From Nocardioides mangrovicus (GTDB lineage Bacteria > Actinomycetota > Actinomycetes > Propionibacteriales > Nocardioidaceae), in contig NZ_RDBE01000008.1 of NCBI RefSeq assembly GCF_003674065.1, positions 62,001 through 126,000 of the forward strand: a DNA stretch of 64,000 bases, given 5' to 3'. The notes below the pieces were generated by a model. It was not told where the DNA came from and searched no databases. It saw nothing but the letters and a program-made list of their open reading frames with translations. Below are positions 21,629 to 26,370 of the stretch, piece after piece (within the stretch, counting starts at the first letter, position 1; each line of letters begins with the position of its first letter). The translations under genes and the position numbers were made by a program.

Positions 21629-22123
21629 GTGACGGACCCGGTGCGGGCAATCGACGAGGCGGTGCCCAACGCGCCCGCCGACCGGCTGCTGCGCGACACC
21701 TCGCGAGCGCTGCCCTGGGTGGGCGTGGTGCTCGGGCTGTGCGCTGTCTTGCTGGTGCCGTGGGTGTTCTACCTCGGCTTCAGCCTGCCCGAGCGGCAGA
21801 CCTCGGCCCACTACGACGTCGCCTGGGCCGGCTTCGACGTCTTCTTGTTCCTCGGCCTGGCCGGCACCGCGATCACCGTGCTGCGCCGCTCGCCGTGGAT
21901 GGGCATCTGGGCCGGGGCGGTGGCCGCGCTGCTGATCACCGACGCCTGGTTCGACGTCGTCACCTCCCCCACCGGTCACGACTTCTGGCAGGCGCTGGTG
22001 CTCGCCGTGCTGGTCGAGCTGCCGCTGGCCGGCACCTGCGTGTGGGTCGTCGGCCACGCCCGCCGGATGGCCCGGCGGCGGATCCGGCACCTGCTGCGAT
22101 CCGCAGCGCGGCGAGCCGACTAG
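21629..22123 (+). CDS. Four-helix membrane protein, unknown function
   Basis: A 164-residue protein with about four transmembrane helices (WVGVVLGLCAVLLVPWVFYL, VFLFLGLAGTAITVL, WAGAVAALLITDAWFDVV, ALVLAVLVELPLAGTCVWVV) and a basic C-terminal tail. Similar small membrane proteins occur in actinobacteria without assigned function. The GTG start lies 6 nt after -10 TAGATT (21617-21622), so the message is probably leaderless. Its stop is 4 bp before the operator of the HTH-MurA gene. Confidence 0.72.
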   Translation: MTDPVRAIDEAVPNAPADRLLRDTSRALPWVGVVLGLCAVLLVPWVFYLGFSLPERQTSAHYDVAWAGFDVFLFLGLAGTAITVLRRSPWMGIWAGAVAALLITDAWFDVVTSPTGHDFWQALVLAVLVELPLAGTCVWVVGHARRMARRRIRHLLRSAARRAD

Positions 22124-22127
22124 GCGT

Positions 22128-22149
22128 TATCTCATATGTGAGATACGTT
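22128..22149 (+). promoter_or_regulatory. Palindromic operator and -10 element of the HTH-MurA gene
   Basis: TATCTCATATGTGAGATA (22128-22145) has two perfect 7-bp arms around TATG. Its right end runs into a -10-like TACGTT (22144-22149) placed 8 nt before the GTG start at 22158. A protein bound there would cover the promoter. Because the gene itself encodes an XRE-type DNA-binding domain, autorepression is the simplest reading; this is inference. Confidence 0.7.
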
Positions 22150-22157
22150 CGACCCTC

Positions 22158-23696
22158 GTGGAGAGCGACTACCTCAAGCGCATCGGCGCGCTGATCCGTG
22201 ATGCCCGCAAGCACCGCGGCTGGACGCAGGCCCAGCTGGCCGAGGAGCTGAGCACCAGCCAGAGCGCGGTCAACCGCATCGAGCGCGGCCACCAGAACAT
22301 CAGCCTGGAGATGATCGCCCGGATCGGCGAGGCGCTCGACAGTCCCATCGTCCAGCTAGGGGCCGGGCCTACGCACCTGCGCGTCACCGGCCCGACGACG
22401 CTGAGCGGCAGCATCGAGGTGAAGACCTCCAAGAACGCCGGGGTCGCGCTGCTGTGCGCCTCGCTGCTCAACCGCGGCCGCACGGTGCTGCGCCGGGTGG
22501 CGCGGATCGAGGAGGTGAACCGCCTCCTGGAGGTGCTGCAGAGCATCGGCGTGCAGACCCGCTGGCTCAACGACGCCGGCGACCTGGAGATCATCCCGCC
22601 CGCCCAGCTCGACCTCGGCGCCATCGACGCAGCCGCTGCCCGCCGCACCCGTTCGGTCATCATGTTCCTGGGCCCCCTGATGCACCGCGAGGGCTCCTTC
22701 CTGCTGCCCTACGCCGGCGGTTGCGATCTGGGCAAGCGCACCGTGGAGCCGCACCTGACGGCCCTGCGTCCCTTCGGCCTGGAGGTGGTGGCCACCGACG
22801 GCCACTACCGCGCCAGCGTGCACGAGGACGTCTCCCCCGCCCGGCCGATCGTCCTCACCGAGCGTGGCGACACCGTCACCGAGAACGCCCTCATGGCCGC
22901 GGCGCTGCACGACGGCACCACCGTCATCCGCAACGCCAGCTCCAACTACATGGTTCAGGACCTGTGCTTCTACCTCGACAAGCTGGGGGTGAAGATCGAC
23001 GGCGTCGGCACCACCACGCTGACCGTCATCGGCCGCCCCGACATCGACGTCGACGTCGACTACGCACCCAGCGAGGACCCGATCGAGGCGATGAGCCTGC
23101 TGGCCGCCGCCATCGTCACCGGCTCGCAGATCACGGTGCGGCGGGTGCCGATCGAGTTCCTCGAGATCGAGCTCGCGCTGCTGGAGGAGATGGGGTTCCG
23201 CTACGACCGGTCGCCGGAGTACGCCGCCGCGAACGGCCAGACCCGGCTGGTCGACATCACCACCCAGCGCTCCAACCTCACCGCGCCGCTGGACAAGATC
23301 CACCCGATGCCGTTCCCCGGCCTCAACATCGACAACCTGCCGTTCTTCGCCGTCATCGCGGCCACCGCTCAGGGCAGCACGATGCTGCACGACTGGGTGT
23401 ACGAGAACCGCGCCATCTACCTCACCGAGCTCACCCGCCTCGGTGCCAAGGTGCAGCTGCTCGACCCGCACCGGGTGATGATCGAGGGGCCGACGCACTG
23501 GTCGGGCACCGAGATCGTCTGCCCGCCGGCGCTGCGGCCGGCGGTGGTCATCCTGCTGGCGATGCTGGCCTCGAAGGGCACCTCGGTGCTGCGCTCGGTC
23601 TACGTCATCGACCGGGGGTACGAGGACCTGGCCGAGCGGCTGAACCAGCTCGGCGCCCAGATCGAGACGTTTCGTGACGCGCGTGGCGAGATCTGA
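22158..23696 (+). CDS. XRE helix-turn-helix domain fused to a MurA-like enolpyruvyl transferase
   Basis: A 512-residue two-domain protein. Residues 1-66 form an XRE-type HTH (IRDARKHRGWTQAQLAEELS, SQSAVNRIERGHQNIS). Residues 72-505 match UDP-N-acetylglucosamine 1-carboxyvinyltransferase, the first enzyme of peptidoglycan precursor synthesis. The MurA catalytic residues appear retained: Lys92-Asn93 (SKNAG), Cys189 in GGCDLGKRTVE, Arg194, and the aspartate in PGLNIDNLPFF. It could be a regulator that senses UDP-GlcNAc or PEP, or a bifunctional enzyme. A perfect palindrome covers its promoter, and the GDPD gene overlaps its end by 23 bp. Confidence 0.9.
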   Translation: MESDYLKRIGALIRDARKHRGWTQAQLAEELSTSQSAVNRIERGHQNISLEMIARIGEALDSPIVQLGAGPTHLRVTGPTTLSGSIEVKTSKNAGVALLCASLLNRGRTVLRRVARIEEVNRLLEVLQSIGVQTRWLNDAGDLEIIPPAQLDLGAIDAAAARRTRSVIMFLGPLMHREGSFLLPYAGGCDLGKRTVEPHLTALRPFGLEVVATDGHYRASVHEDVSPARPIVLTERGDTVTENALMAAALHDGTTVIRNASSNYMVQDLCFYLDKLGVKIDGVGTTTLTVIGRPDIDVDVDYAPSEDPIEAMSLLAAAIVTGSQITVRRVPIEFLEIELALLEEMGFRYDRSPEYAAANGQTRLVDITTQRSNLTAPLDKIHPMPFPGLNIDNLPFFAVIAATAQGSTMLHDWVYENRAIYLTELTRLGAKVQLLDPHRVMIEGPTHWSGTEIVCPPALRPAVVILLAMLASKGTSVLRSVYVIDRGYEDLAERLNQLGAQIETFRDARGEI

Positions 23697-24456
23697 GGCG
23701 GTCCGCACCGGCTACGCCTACCTCGACGACGTCGGCGTCGTCGCGATGGCGCACCGCGGCGGTGCCCAGCACCCCGACCTGCTAGGACTGGAGAACACCG
23801 CCGAGGCGTTCAGCCACGCCACGCGGCTGGGCTACCGCTACCTGGAGACAGACGTCCACGCCACCCGTGACGGCGTCCTGGTGGCCTTCCACGACGAGGT
23901 GCTCGACCGCGTCACCGACCGCACCGGGCGGATCGAGTCGCTGACCTCGGCGCAGCTGGCCGAGGCGCTCATCGGCGGCCGCCACGCCGTCCCGCGCTTC
24001 GCCGAGCTGCTCGCCGACCTGCCCGACGCCCGGTTCAACGTCGACCTGAAGTCCGAGAGCGCCGTACGCCCGCTGGCCGACCTCCTGCGCAGCACCGGCG
24101 CCGAGGACCGGGTGTGCGTCGGGGCGTTCTCGCTGCCGCGGATCCGTTCCTTCCGTCGCCTGACCGGGGGCCGGGTGGCGACCGCCGCCGCCCCCGCCGA
24201 GGTGGCCCGGGTGGTGGCCGGACTGCCCTGCCGCGGTCCGGCGGTGCTCCAGGTGCCGCACCGACGCGGCCGTGTCCGGGTGGTGACGCCGAGGCTGGTC
24301 CGGCGGGCGCACGCCGCGCGGATGCACGTGCACGTGTGGACCGTCGACGACCCGGCCGAGATGGCCGAGCTGCTCGACCTCGGCGTCGACGGCCTCATCA
24401 CCGATCGCACCGACCTGCTGCGAGAGGTGCTCGAGCAGCGCGGGTCGTGGTCGTGA
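23674..24456 (+). CDS. Glycerophosphodiester phosphodiesterase
   Basis: A 260-residue GDPD that hydrolyses glycerophosphodiesters to glycerol-3-phosphate and an alcohol. Motifs: AHRGG near residue 26, YLETDVHATRDGVLVAFHDEVLDR with the metal ligands and catalytic histidine, FNVDLKSE, and the closing GVDGLITDRTDLL. There is no signal peptide, so it is cytoplasmic. Its GTG start lies inside the end of the HTH-MurA gene (23-bp overlap) and its stop overlaps the UMF1 transporter start by 4 bp, so the three genes are an operon. Confidence 0.9.
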   Translation: MTRVARSEAVRTGYAYLDDVGVVAMAHRGGAQHPDLLGLENTAEAFSHATRLGYRYLETDVHATRDGVLVAFHDEVLDRVTDRTGRIESLTSAQLAEALIGGRHAVPRFAELLADLPDARFNVDLKSESAVRPLADLLRSTGAEDRVCVGAFSLPRIRSFRRLTGGRVATAAAPAEVARVVAGLPCRGPAVLQVPHRRGRVRVVTPRLVRRAHAARMHVHVWTVDDPAEMAELLDLGVDGLITDRTDLLREVLEQRGSWS

Positions 24457-25826
24457 GCGGGTTCGCCGACCTCGCCCCGCTGCGTCGACGCAGCCAGCAA
24501 CGGGCCTGGAACTGGTACGACTGGGCCAACTCGGCCTACTACACGACCGTCCTCTCGGTGCTGTTCGCGCCGTACATGATCACCGTCGCGGGTCGCGCGG
24601 CCGGCTGCACGGACCCGGACGAGACCTGCGACCGGACGGTCTCGGTGCTCGGGCTGCACCTGGCCGCGGGCTCGCTGCCGGCGTACCTCACCAGCTTCGC
24701 CACCATCGCCAGCGCCTTCGTGCTGCCGGTGGTGGGCGCCTTCGTGGACCGCTCGCCGCGCAAGAAGTGGAACATGGCCGGGTTCGCCTTCGCCGGCTCG
24801 GCCTGCTGCATGCTGCTGTTCTGGCTGCGCGGCGACCAGTGGCAGATCGGCGCTTTCGCGGTGGTCTCCAGCAGCATCCTCGGCGGCTGCTCACTGGTGG
24901 CCTACTACGCCATCCTGGTCGACATCTCCACCGAGGCCGAGCGAGACGCCGTGTCCTCGCGCGGCTGGGCGTTCGGCTACCTGGGCGGCGGGCTGCTGCT
25001 GGCGATCAACCTGGGCGTGTTCCTGGGGCACTCCGCCCTCGGCATCGGCTCGGGGCTCGCGGTGCGGCTCAGCCTGCTCAGCGCCGGCGTGTGGTGGGCC
25101 GGGTTCACGCTCATCCCGCTGCTGCGGCTGCGCGACGTGGCTCCCCAGGACGTCGTCGCGGTCCAGGGTGGGCTGTGGGCGCGCAGCTTCGGCCAGCTGG
25201 CGACCACGCTGCGCGAGATGCGCGCCTACCCGATGACGCTGACGTTCCTGGGCGCCTACCTCTTCTACAACGACGGCATCCAGACGGTGATCGCCGAGGC
25301 CTCGACCTACGGGGCCAAGCAGCTCCACATCGCCCAGACCGTGCTCATCGCGACCATCCTGCTCATCCAGTTCGTCGCGTTCGGCGGTGCACTGTTCTTC
25401 GGTCGGCTCGCCGCCCGCTACGGCGGCTACCGCGCGATCCTCGGCGGCACGTTCGCGTGGATGGTCGTCGTGGTCGCGGCCATCGCGCTGCCCGAGCGCA
25501 ACGTGCCGCTCTTCATGGTGCTGGCAGTGGCGATCGGCGTCGTGCTGGGCGGCACCCAGGCACTCTCGCGATCCTTCTTCAGCCTGCTCATCCCCCGCGG
25601 CCGCGAGGGCGAGTACTTCAGCCTCTACAACGCCTGCGAGCGCGGCACATCGTGGTTCGGCACGTTGCTGTTCGGCGTCGTCTTCCAGGTCACCGGCTCC
25701 TACCGACCGGCGATCTTCGCCCTCATCGTGTTCTTCGTCCTCGGCGCCGCGCTGCTGCTGCGGCTCGATCCGCGCCGCGGCGTGGAGGAGGCCGGCAACC
25801 GGGTGCCGGCGGCACTGGCCCGGTGA
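24453..25826 (+). CDS. MFS transporter of the UMF1/Atg22-like family
   Basis: A 457-residue transporter with about 12 transmembrane helices. The start region RAWNWYDWANSAYYTTVLSVLFAPYM is diagnostic of the UMF1 (Atg22-like) family, and GGTQALSRSFFSLLIPRGREGEYFSLY is its conserved second-half loop. Substrates of bacterial members are not known; fungal Atg22 exports amino acids from the vacuole. GTG 24453 overlaps the GDPD stop as GTGA. It ends the HTH-MurA, GDPD, UMF1 operon. Confidence 0.88.
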   Translation: MSGFADLAPLRRRSQQRAWNWYDWANSAYYTTVLSVLFAPYMITVAGRAAGCTDPDETCDRTVSVLGLHLAAGSLPAYLTSFATIASAFVLPVVGAFVDRSPRKKWNMAGFAFAGSACCMLLFWLRGDQWQIGAFAVVSSSILGGCSLVAYYAILVDISTEAERDAVSSRGWAFGYLGGGLLLAINLGVFLGHSALGIGSGLAVRLSLLSAGVWWAGFTLIPLLRLRDVAPQDVVAVQGGLWARSFGQLATTLREMRAYPMTLTFLGAYLFYNDGIQTVIAEASTYGAKQLHIAQTVLIATILLIQFVAFGGALFFGRLAARYGGYRAILGGTFAWMVVVVAAIALPERNVPLFMVLAVAIGVVLGGTQALSRSFFSLLIPRGREGEYFSLYNACERGTSWFGTLLFGVVFQVTGSYRPAIFALIVFFVLGAALLLRLDPRRGVEEAGNRVPAALAR

Positions 25827-25989: not shown

Positions 25990-26370
25990 ATGGCAGAGCG
26001 CACACTACGGGGGGCCAGGCTCGGAGGACAGAGCTTCGAGGACGAGCGCGGGATCGAGTTCGCGGCACGGCAGCAGGTCGGATACCGCTGTCCCCAGGGC
26101 CACGAGTTCGAGATCACGATGTCGACCGAGGCCGACATCCCGGCGACCTGGGAATGCCCCCGCTGCGGCGAGGAGGGGCTGTCGACCGACGGCGTCAAGC
26201 CGGAGGAGAAGCCGGAGAAGCCGGTCCGCACGCACTGGGACATGCTCCTGGAGCGGCGATCGGTCAAGGAGCTCGAGGACATCCTCACCGAGCGGCTGGA
26301 GCTGCTGCGGGGCGGCGAGATCGGCCCCGCTCACCTGCACCGGCCGCGCAAGCGGACGACGAAGGCCTAG
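25990..26370 (+). CDS. rbpA: RNA polymerase-binding protein RbpA
   Basis: A 126-residue actinobacterial transcription factor that binds RNA polymerase and principal sigma factors and stabilises the open complex. The family pattern is complete: N-terminal tail (MAERTLRGARLGGQSFEDERGIE), core domain with YRCPQGHEFEI and WECPRCGEEG, whose Cys/His set could bind zinc as in the Streptomyces protein, a basic linker, and the sigma-interacting domain THWDMLLERRSVKELEDILTERLELLR. The ATG follows GGGAAGGTG. A SigR-type promoter precedes it, and a hairpin inside the convergent fxsA gene can end its transcript. Confidence 0.96.
   Translation: MAERTLRGARLGGQSFEDERGIEFAARQQVGYRCPQGHEFEITMSTEADIPATWECPRCGEEGLSTDGVKPEEKPEKPVRTHWDMLLERRSVKELEDILTERLELLRGGEIGPAHLHRPRKRTTKA

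Follow-up and report, generated by a model that had tools for sequence, protein, structure and literature searches.

The first committed intermediate on the way to peptidoglycan is the product of MurA, an enzyme targeted by the antibiotic fosfomycin. Why would a protein with the fold of this enzyme begin with a DNA-binding domain, and what is the role of the palindrome directly in front of its gene? These questions are raised by a locus in the 64-kb stretch of DNA analysed here (in its entirety called the window), and they translate into three narrower ones, i.e., whether the palindrome is a real operator of this gene, whether the enzyme domain still works as a MurA, and whether the two functions are connected.

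Architecture and distribution of the fusion

A single open reading frame joins an XRE helix-turn-helix (HTH) domain (Pfam HTH_3, E = 5.8e-15) to a domain of the EPSP-synthase/MurA family (PF00275, E = 1.8e-46; Table 1). With 55.5 bits against an HTH_3 cut-off of 23, the N-terminus is a bona fide member of the XRE/Cro-type HTH domains. The fusion matched the profile PRK09369 with 323.4 bits, above the cut-off of 297, and stayed below that of the murA equivalog TIGR01072 (304.5 vs. 392.7 bits), against which the ordinary MurA of the same genome scored 495. In the predicted structure (mean pLDDT 85.2) the HTH helices are present, and the top Foldseek matches of the enzyme domain are MurA structures, with 5ujs ranking first and 1uae reaching a TM score of 0.90 by target length. 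Low confidence is found in the inter-domain stretch at residues 65–68, part of a short linker (residues 61–70, mean pLDDT 51), and in a second stretch at residues 384–389, directly N-terminal of D392. The original prediction had described this combination of an XRE HTH with a MurA-like domain retaining Lys-Asn, the catalytic Cys, Arg, and Asp, all of which are indeed present (K92-N93, C189, R194, and D392), but had let the gene start at position 22128. This is where the operator begins, whereas the fusion frame is opened by the GTG at 22158.

Table 1. Coordinates of the promoter, the fusion gene, and the genes downstream (window positions; a dot marks a feature without strand).
Feature	Position	Strand	Basis or remark
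Operator TATCTCATATGTGAGATA, 7-bp arms, filling the -35/-10 spacer	22128..22145	.	sole site in the genome at up to two mismatches, conserved in relatives
Putative weak -35 hexamer TAGGCG, overlapping the upstream ORF's stop codon	22121..22126	+	sequence; 17-bp spacer to TACGTT
-10 hexamer TACGTT (TANNNT), TA common to the operator	22144..22149	+	TANNNT in 106/106 loci
Gene of the HTH-MurA fusion (512 aa), with GTG as start codon	22158..23696	+	8 nt from -10 box to start codon
XRE helix-turn-helix domain, residues 9–61	22182..22340	+	Pfam HTH_3
Recognition helix, residues 35–42	22260–22283	+	structure model, helices 24–30 and 35–42
MurA-like enolpyruvyl transferase domain, residues 73–505	22374..23672	+	PRK09369, Foldseek, invariant active-site residues
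Cys189 codon of the fusion	22722–22724	+	MurA-like domain
GDPD-family gene, start overlapping the end of the fusion gene	23674..24456	+	PF03009
UMF1/Atg22-like MFS transporter gene, overlapping the GDPD gene	24435..25826	+	PF11700

A search of other genomes for the fusion had been proposed as a check; among 197 genomes sampled from the class, 52 were found to have it, spread over 15 of 91 genera (E ≤ 1e-60). The match starts at query residues 1–5 in all 52, so that the HTH is joined to MurA in each of these genomes and nowhere among them forms the separate gene that would have spoken against the prediction (a statement about these 52). Named genera among the best 80 matches are Nocardioides, Marmoricola, Aeromicrobium, Kribbella, Mumia, Brachybacterium, Actinopolymorpha, and Streptomyces. 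When the three best candidates per genome were scored in a sample of 396 genomes of the phylum, seven matching genomes lay outside the class, and there only the enzyme domain was matched. In a tree that also took in nine Asp-type MurAs, five Cys-type MurAs, and six MurAs from elsewhere in the phylum, all 19 fusion rows formed one clade (support 100/100) on a stem of 4.3 changes per column, to be read with caution as long branches meet at this stem; L151 is absent from the tree because the motif used for cutting was not found. Judged from these sequences, the fusion is of one origin. One of its members, in genome G081 (L173:4853-6363), is split over two frames and matched in two pieces, reflecting either a sequencing error or a real change.

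A probable ortholog of the fusion is SCO5998 (MurA2), one of the two MurAs of Streptomyces coelicolor. This assignment rests on a neighbour gene, since an aconitase gene adjoins the fusion in the Streptomyces locus L071 and the aconitase SCO5999 lies beside SCO5998 according to PMC12161575, which also gives a predicted DmdR1 site between these two genes. PMC8346170 describes SCO5998 as monocistronic and reports a SigB-dependent promoter for it, so that the promoter carrying the operator may not be the only one. In passages on SCO5998 in PMC8346170 and PMC12161575 it is treated as a cell-wall enzyme with no mention of an HTH or of autoregulation. Searches of open-licence literature yielded no description of an HTH-MurA autoregulator or of a MurA controlling its own gene; palindromes of XRE proteins are the subject of PMC12565409.

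The genes downstream are less constant companions. In the window, their overlaps suggest that the GDPD and UMF1 genes are probably co-transcribed with the fusion, and control of both by the fusion protein, as originally proposed, is plausible there. However, comparison of the neighbourhoods weakened the idea that they are parts of the circuit, of which they do not form a conserved component. Among 86 loci, relatives near the fusion were GDPD (43), UMF1 (41), RbpA (36), and FxsA (29). The GDPD relatives occur in Nocardioidaceae loci and in L177, separated from the fusion by anything from an overlap to several kb, with the gap in Nocardioidaceae reaching more than 1.5 kb. No relatives of GDPD or UMF1 were found in the Streptomyces, Kribbella, and Brachybacterium loci, for which up to 4 kb of flanking sequence was covered. 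The RbpA gene of the window lies 3' of UMF1 at 25990–26370.

A conserved operator in the promoter of the fusion gene

The palindrome had been announced as perfect, which it is not: the 7-bp arms match, and one mismatched pair in the central TATG leaves eight of nine base pairs symmetric. Its position against the -10 box was described correctly, with the final TA of the operator being the TA of TACGTT. No site reached the threshold of a sigma-70 scan. As the start codon follows only 8 nt past the -10 box, the fusion transcript is probably leaderless. The dyad operator in the gene's own promoter is the feature expected of an autoregulated XRE repressor, and its location in the -35/-10 spacer is, as far as sequence can tell, the geometry of an autorepressor. 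Upstream, a 164-aa membrane-protein-like ORF (21629–22123), for which neither Pfam nor NCBIfam gave a hit at E ≤ 0.001, ends 4 bp 5' of the operator.

With up to three mismatches allowed, TATCTCATATGTGAGATA has no second place in the 64-kb window (mean in shuffles 0.00), and the 4.1-Mb genome as a whole has a single copy of TATCTCANNNNTGAGATA with up to two mismatches, the one in the fusion promoter. In 45 of the 52 genomes that encode the fusion, the exact pattern ATCTCANNNNTGAGWT falls within the 50 bp preceding the gene, compared with 31 of the 145 other genomes that have such a site at any place. Six others carry mismatches in the 14-position pattern (one in G104; two in G101, G002, G164, and G178; three in G090), and the operator variant of G178 is fully symmetric with both arms changed (TAACTCATATATGAGTTA). 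Only G081 has no site. Homologues of the fusion lacking any conserved palindrome, which would have contradicted the original prediction, are therefore not the rule: with up to three of 14 positions mismatched, the site is present in 51 of 52 genomes.

A set of 106 loci, drawn from the best 30 per search and comprising the window's own locus and three duplicate pairs (103 distinct proteins), gave the same picture. The best site had zero or one mismatch in 102 loci, two in three loci, and three in one. Four loci outside the set on account of its anchor pattern (L024, L029, L030, and L031) were read separately and have one mismatch each. Among 21,200 shuffled upstream sequences (200 × 106), none came below three mismatches and 13 (0.06%) had three, and in 46 upstream stretches of 140 nt from ordinary MurA genes, the starts of which were placed approximately from a motif, the best site had five to eight. 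A chance palindrome was rejected on the basis of these two controls. The TANNNT element stands at a fixed place after the operator throughout the set; L145/L177 and L199, which were read outside of it, lack the last T. The flanks are little conserved, with a G 4 bp 5' of the operator in 58 of 73 flank-nonredundant rows, and the distance from site to start is 10–12 nt in 101 of 106 loci if the nearest start codon is taken as the start.

Does the fusion protein itself read this site? Comparing recognition helices with operators provided weak support. In L081 (same genome as L188) the half-sites are changed symmetrically to TATCGCATATATGCGATA, which makes it the sole such locus of 106, and the helix TTQSVVNR, seen in no other of these loci, replaces TSQSAVNR. 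This coupled change, however, comes from a single species, and other loci speak against it: L198 of the same genus has three changes in its helix, SQNVVSR(IE), and an unchanged operator, while L200, L203, L205, and L216 have one or two operator changes and the ordinary helix (the comparison in this genus covers 30 fetched loci of 48 matching genomes). Given L198, several positions of the recognition helix may play no part in contacting bases, or may tolerate substitution. In G081, the genome without an operator, the recognition helix has diverged as well (MTEQDIEQIE replaces TSQSAVNRIE), so that site and helix were lost together.

That binding of HTH-MurA to the palindrome is a prediction from sequence leaves room for the palindrome to belong to another regulator, with DmdR1 and its predicted site between SCO5998 and SCO5999 as an example of how a second factor might act nearby. 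We regard this as highly improbable because the site accompanies the fusion gene in genera with different neighbours, has few further copies in these genomes, and is missing together with the recognition helix in G081. It is also unlikely, though less so, that the HTH acts as an activator of the gene when bound to the site, or that it controls unrelated genes through further sites. Some XRE proteins are activators, which by analogy might apply here, and eight of the 45 genomes with the exact site contain one or two more, nine in all, while the other 37 contain none. However, the operator occupies the spacer of the promoter and has its final TA in common with the -10 box, so that a bound protein would block the polymerase. 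Moreover, of the 145 genomes that lack the fusion, 31 contain the exact pattern somewhere, and the extra sites in eight of 45 fusion genomes are no commoner than that. A wider regulon was thus not found, with one site in the window's own genome and, searching for the exact pattern only, extra sites in those eight relatives.

A divergent MurA

The second question is whether the MurA domain still catalyses. It could instead be degenerate and serve as the ligand sensor of a one-component repressor while another MurA makes peptidoglycan, which is close to the original prediction of an enolpyruvyl transferase kept as a sensor. In line with such a division of labour, at least one further MurA homologue was found in 35 of the 52 fusion genomes, including that of the window, when the window genome's ordinary MurA was used as the query (E ≤ 1e-20). 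In the remaining 17, however, the fusion was the sole MurA homologue found; 14 of these belong to the window's family, from which 15 genomes were sampled, and three to another family. A previous result that Streptomyces lack a second MurA, obtained with the same kind of query at E ≤ 1e-60, was dropped because a Cys-type MurA was found at 1e-20.

Counts of PF00275 matches and of MurB, which requires the product of MurA, bear on the same point. There are two PF00275 matches in 16 of the 17 genomes and three in G081, where the split fusion gene accounts for the additional one. Two matches were also found in six of ten named genomes (Nocardioides sp. SLBN-35, N. halotolerans, N. luteus, Aeromicrobium sp. 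Root344 and 9AM, and Mumia quercus); the other named genomes have three (two Brachybacterium and Kribbella) or five (Actinopolymorpha). The match other than the fusion is AroA in all seven genomes checked, five of the 17 and two of the named ones, and each of 24 tested genomes has one MurB match. With MurB present and the fusion as the sole MurA homologue, the fusion must be the MurA of these hosts, and we infer that it is a working enzyme there rather than a degenerate sensor.

The active site agrees with this inference. K92, N93, C189, R194, D392, R460, and R486 are invariant in all 106 loci and R165 is kept too; the seven invariant residues match the catalytic residues of Escherichia coli MurA (Lys22-Asn23, Cys/Asp115, Arg120, Asp305, Arg371, and Arg397), so that the fusion family has the catalytic set of a MurA. 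Not so the residues contacting UDP-GlcNAc, which in ordinary MurA are Asp123, Ser162-Val163-Gly164, and Asp369 of the DLR motif (phosphate/uracil site): the fusion has E197 for D123, G237-D238-T239 for SVG, and PALR, with P457/A458 before L-R, for DLR. In a comparison of the 106 fusion rows with 52 ordinary MurAs, 56 columns are conserved alike and 26 are conserved within both sets yet different, two of them being gaps in ordinary MurAs; these 26 include part of the phosphate loop, which reads ERGDTVTEN where ordinary MurAs have PSVGATEN, and the D of DLR/DIR. The motifs ERGDTVTEN (window 22860–22886) and the invariant CPPALRPA (window 23520–23546) mark the fusion clade. With ordinary MurA (TIGR01072) the fusion therefore shares the fold, the columns conserved alike, and the catalytic Lys-Asn, Asp, and Arg, and differs by its HTH, the changed columns, and its score below the equivalog cut-off. 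By sequence, the fusion clade is a divergent MurA subfamily in which substrate recognition may have been re-engineered. Given the replacements in the pocket and the missed TIGR01072 cut-off, the fusion could act on a different substrate where a second MurA is encoded.

A domain retained merely as a sensor is consequently very unlikely. Family-wide replacement of the nucleotide-sugar pocket and the second MurA of many hosts would fit it, but the catalytic residues have not drifted, and the 17 genomes with MurB and no other MurA homologue led us to reject it: where it is alone, the protein must be catalytic, and this part of the original prediction is unsupported.

The ordinary MurA of the window's genome (L002:1462-2760; G000:C1:753354-754652), whose neighbour on the opposite strand resembles, on inspection by eye, a cobalamin adenosyltransferase gene, is of the Asp type, with GGDAIGSRG replacing the Cys motif at the place where the fusion has Cys189. 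Asp at this position is the mycobacterial, fosfomycin-resistant state. None of the other 14 genomes sampled from the window's family has this Asp-type MurA, which may be ancestral and have been lost in these relatives.

Probable autoregulation and a possible link to precursor supply

Taken together, we consider it likely that the fusion works as a divergent MurA (UDP-GlcNAc enolpyruvyl transferase) and at the same time represses the gene encoding it. Fusion dimers would bind the palindrome in the spacer through their N-terminal XRE domains and, as repressors rather than activators, exclude RNA polymerase from the presumably leaderless promoter. The amount of putatively active enzyme would in this way limit its own synthesis, and the enzyme level would be held constant. 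The alternative already offered in the original prediction, an enzyme regulating its own gene, is thus well supported by the conserved operator, the single site in the window's own genome, and the sole MurA homologue in 17 of 52 genomes. In hosts where no other MurA was found, the roles of essential enzyme and of its regulator seem to be combined in a single protein.

Whether transcription is in addition gated by the ligand state of the enzyme is a more tentative proposal and a special case of the autorepressing MurA, one that we consider possible at somewhat less than even chances. The closed form (with UDP-MurNAc or UDP-GlcNAc bound, or with the PEP-Cys adduct) and the open form would differ in operator binding, and the promoter would read the flux of peptidoglycan precursors much as the biotin ligase BirA reads biotinyl-AMP. 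The two domains staying fused in all 52 genomes, the short linker modelled with low confidence between them, and the one operator in the window's own genome are compatible with such coupling, as is the analogy to known trigger enzymes, but simple autorepression explains this anatomy equally well.

Trigger enzymes such as BirA, PutA, and NadR combine a metabolic enzyme and a DNA-binding regulator in one polypeptide, and the fusion, judging by both of its predicted roles, would do the same. It differs from them in its enzyme and in its DNA-binding fold, and within its own genome no target was seen apart from the gene that encodes it. Another point of comparison is the BzdR/BoxR type (PRK08154), with an XRE domain fused to a shikimate-kinase-like domain. 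It likewise joins an XRE HTH to an enzyme fold, and PRK08154 weakly matches the HTH of the fusion (33.9 bits vs. a cut-off of 204), but its C-terminal fold, which serves as a benzoyl-CoA sensor, is unlike MurA.

A MurA autoregulator with one operator in its genome would be a minimal circuit, built on a divergent clade with pocket residues unlike those of the 52 ordinary MurAs compared and representing the sole MurA homologue found in a third of its hosts (17 of 52). If ligand gating holds, which is conceivable but falls short of being our expectation, the committed enzyme of peptidoglycan synthesis would be a direct flux sensor, with the state of its active site (UDP-GlcNAc, UDP-MurNAc, the PEP adduct, or fosfomycin) setting the affinity of the XRE domain for its single operator. 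Precursor demand and antibiotic attack on MurA would then be read without any other regulator, and the only MurA of Nocardioides and Aeromicrobium would work in this way.
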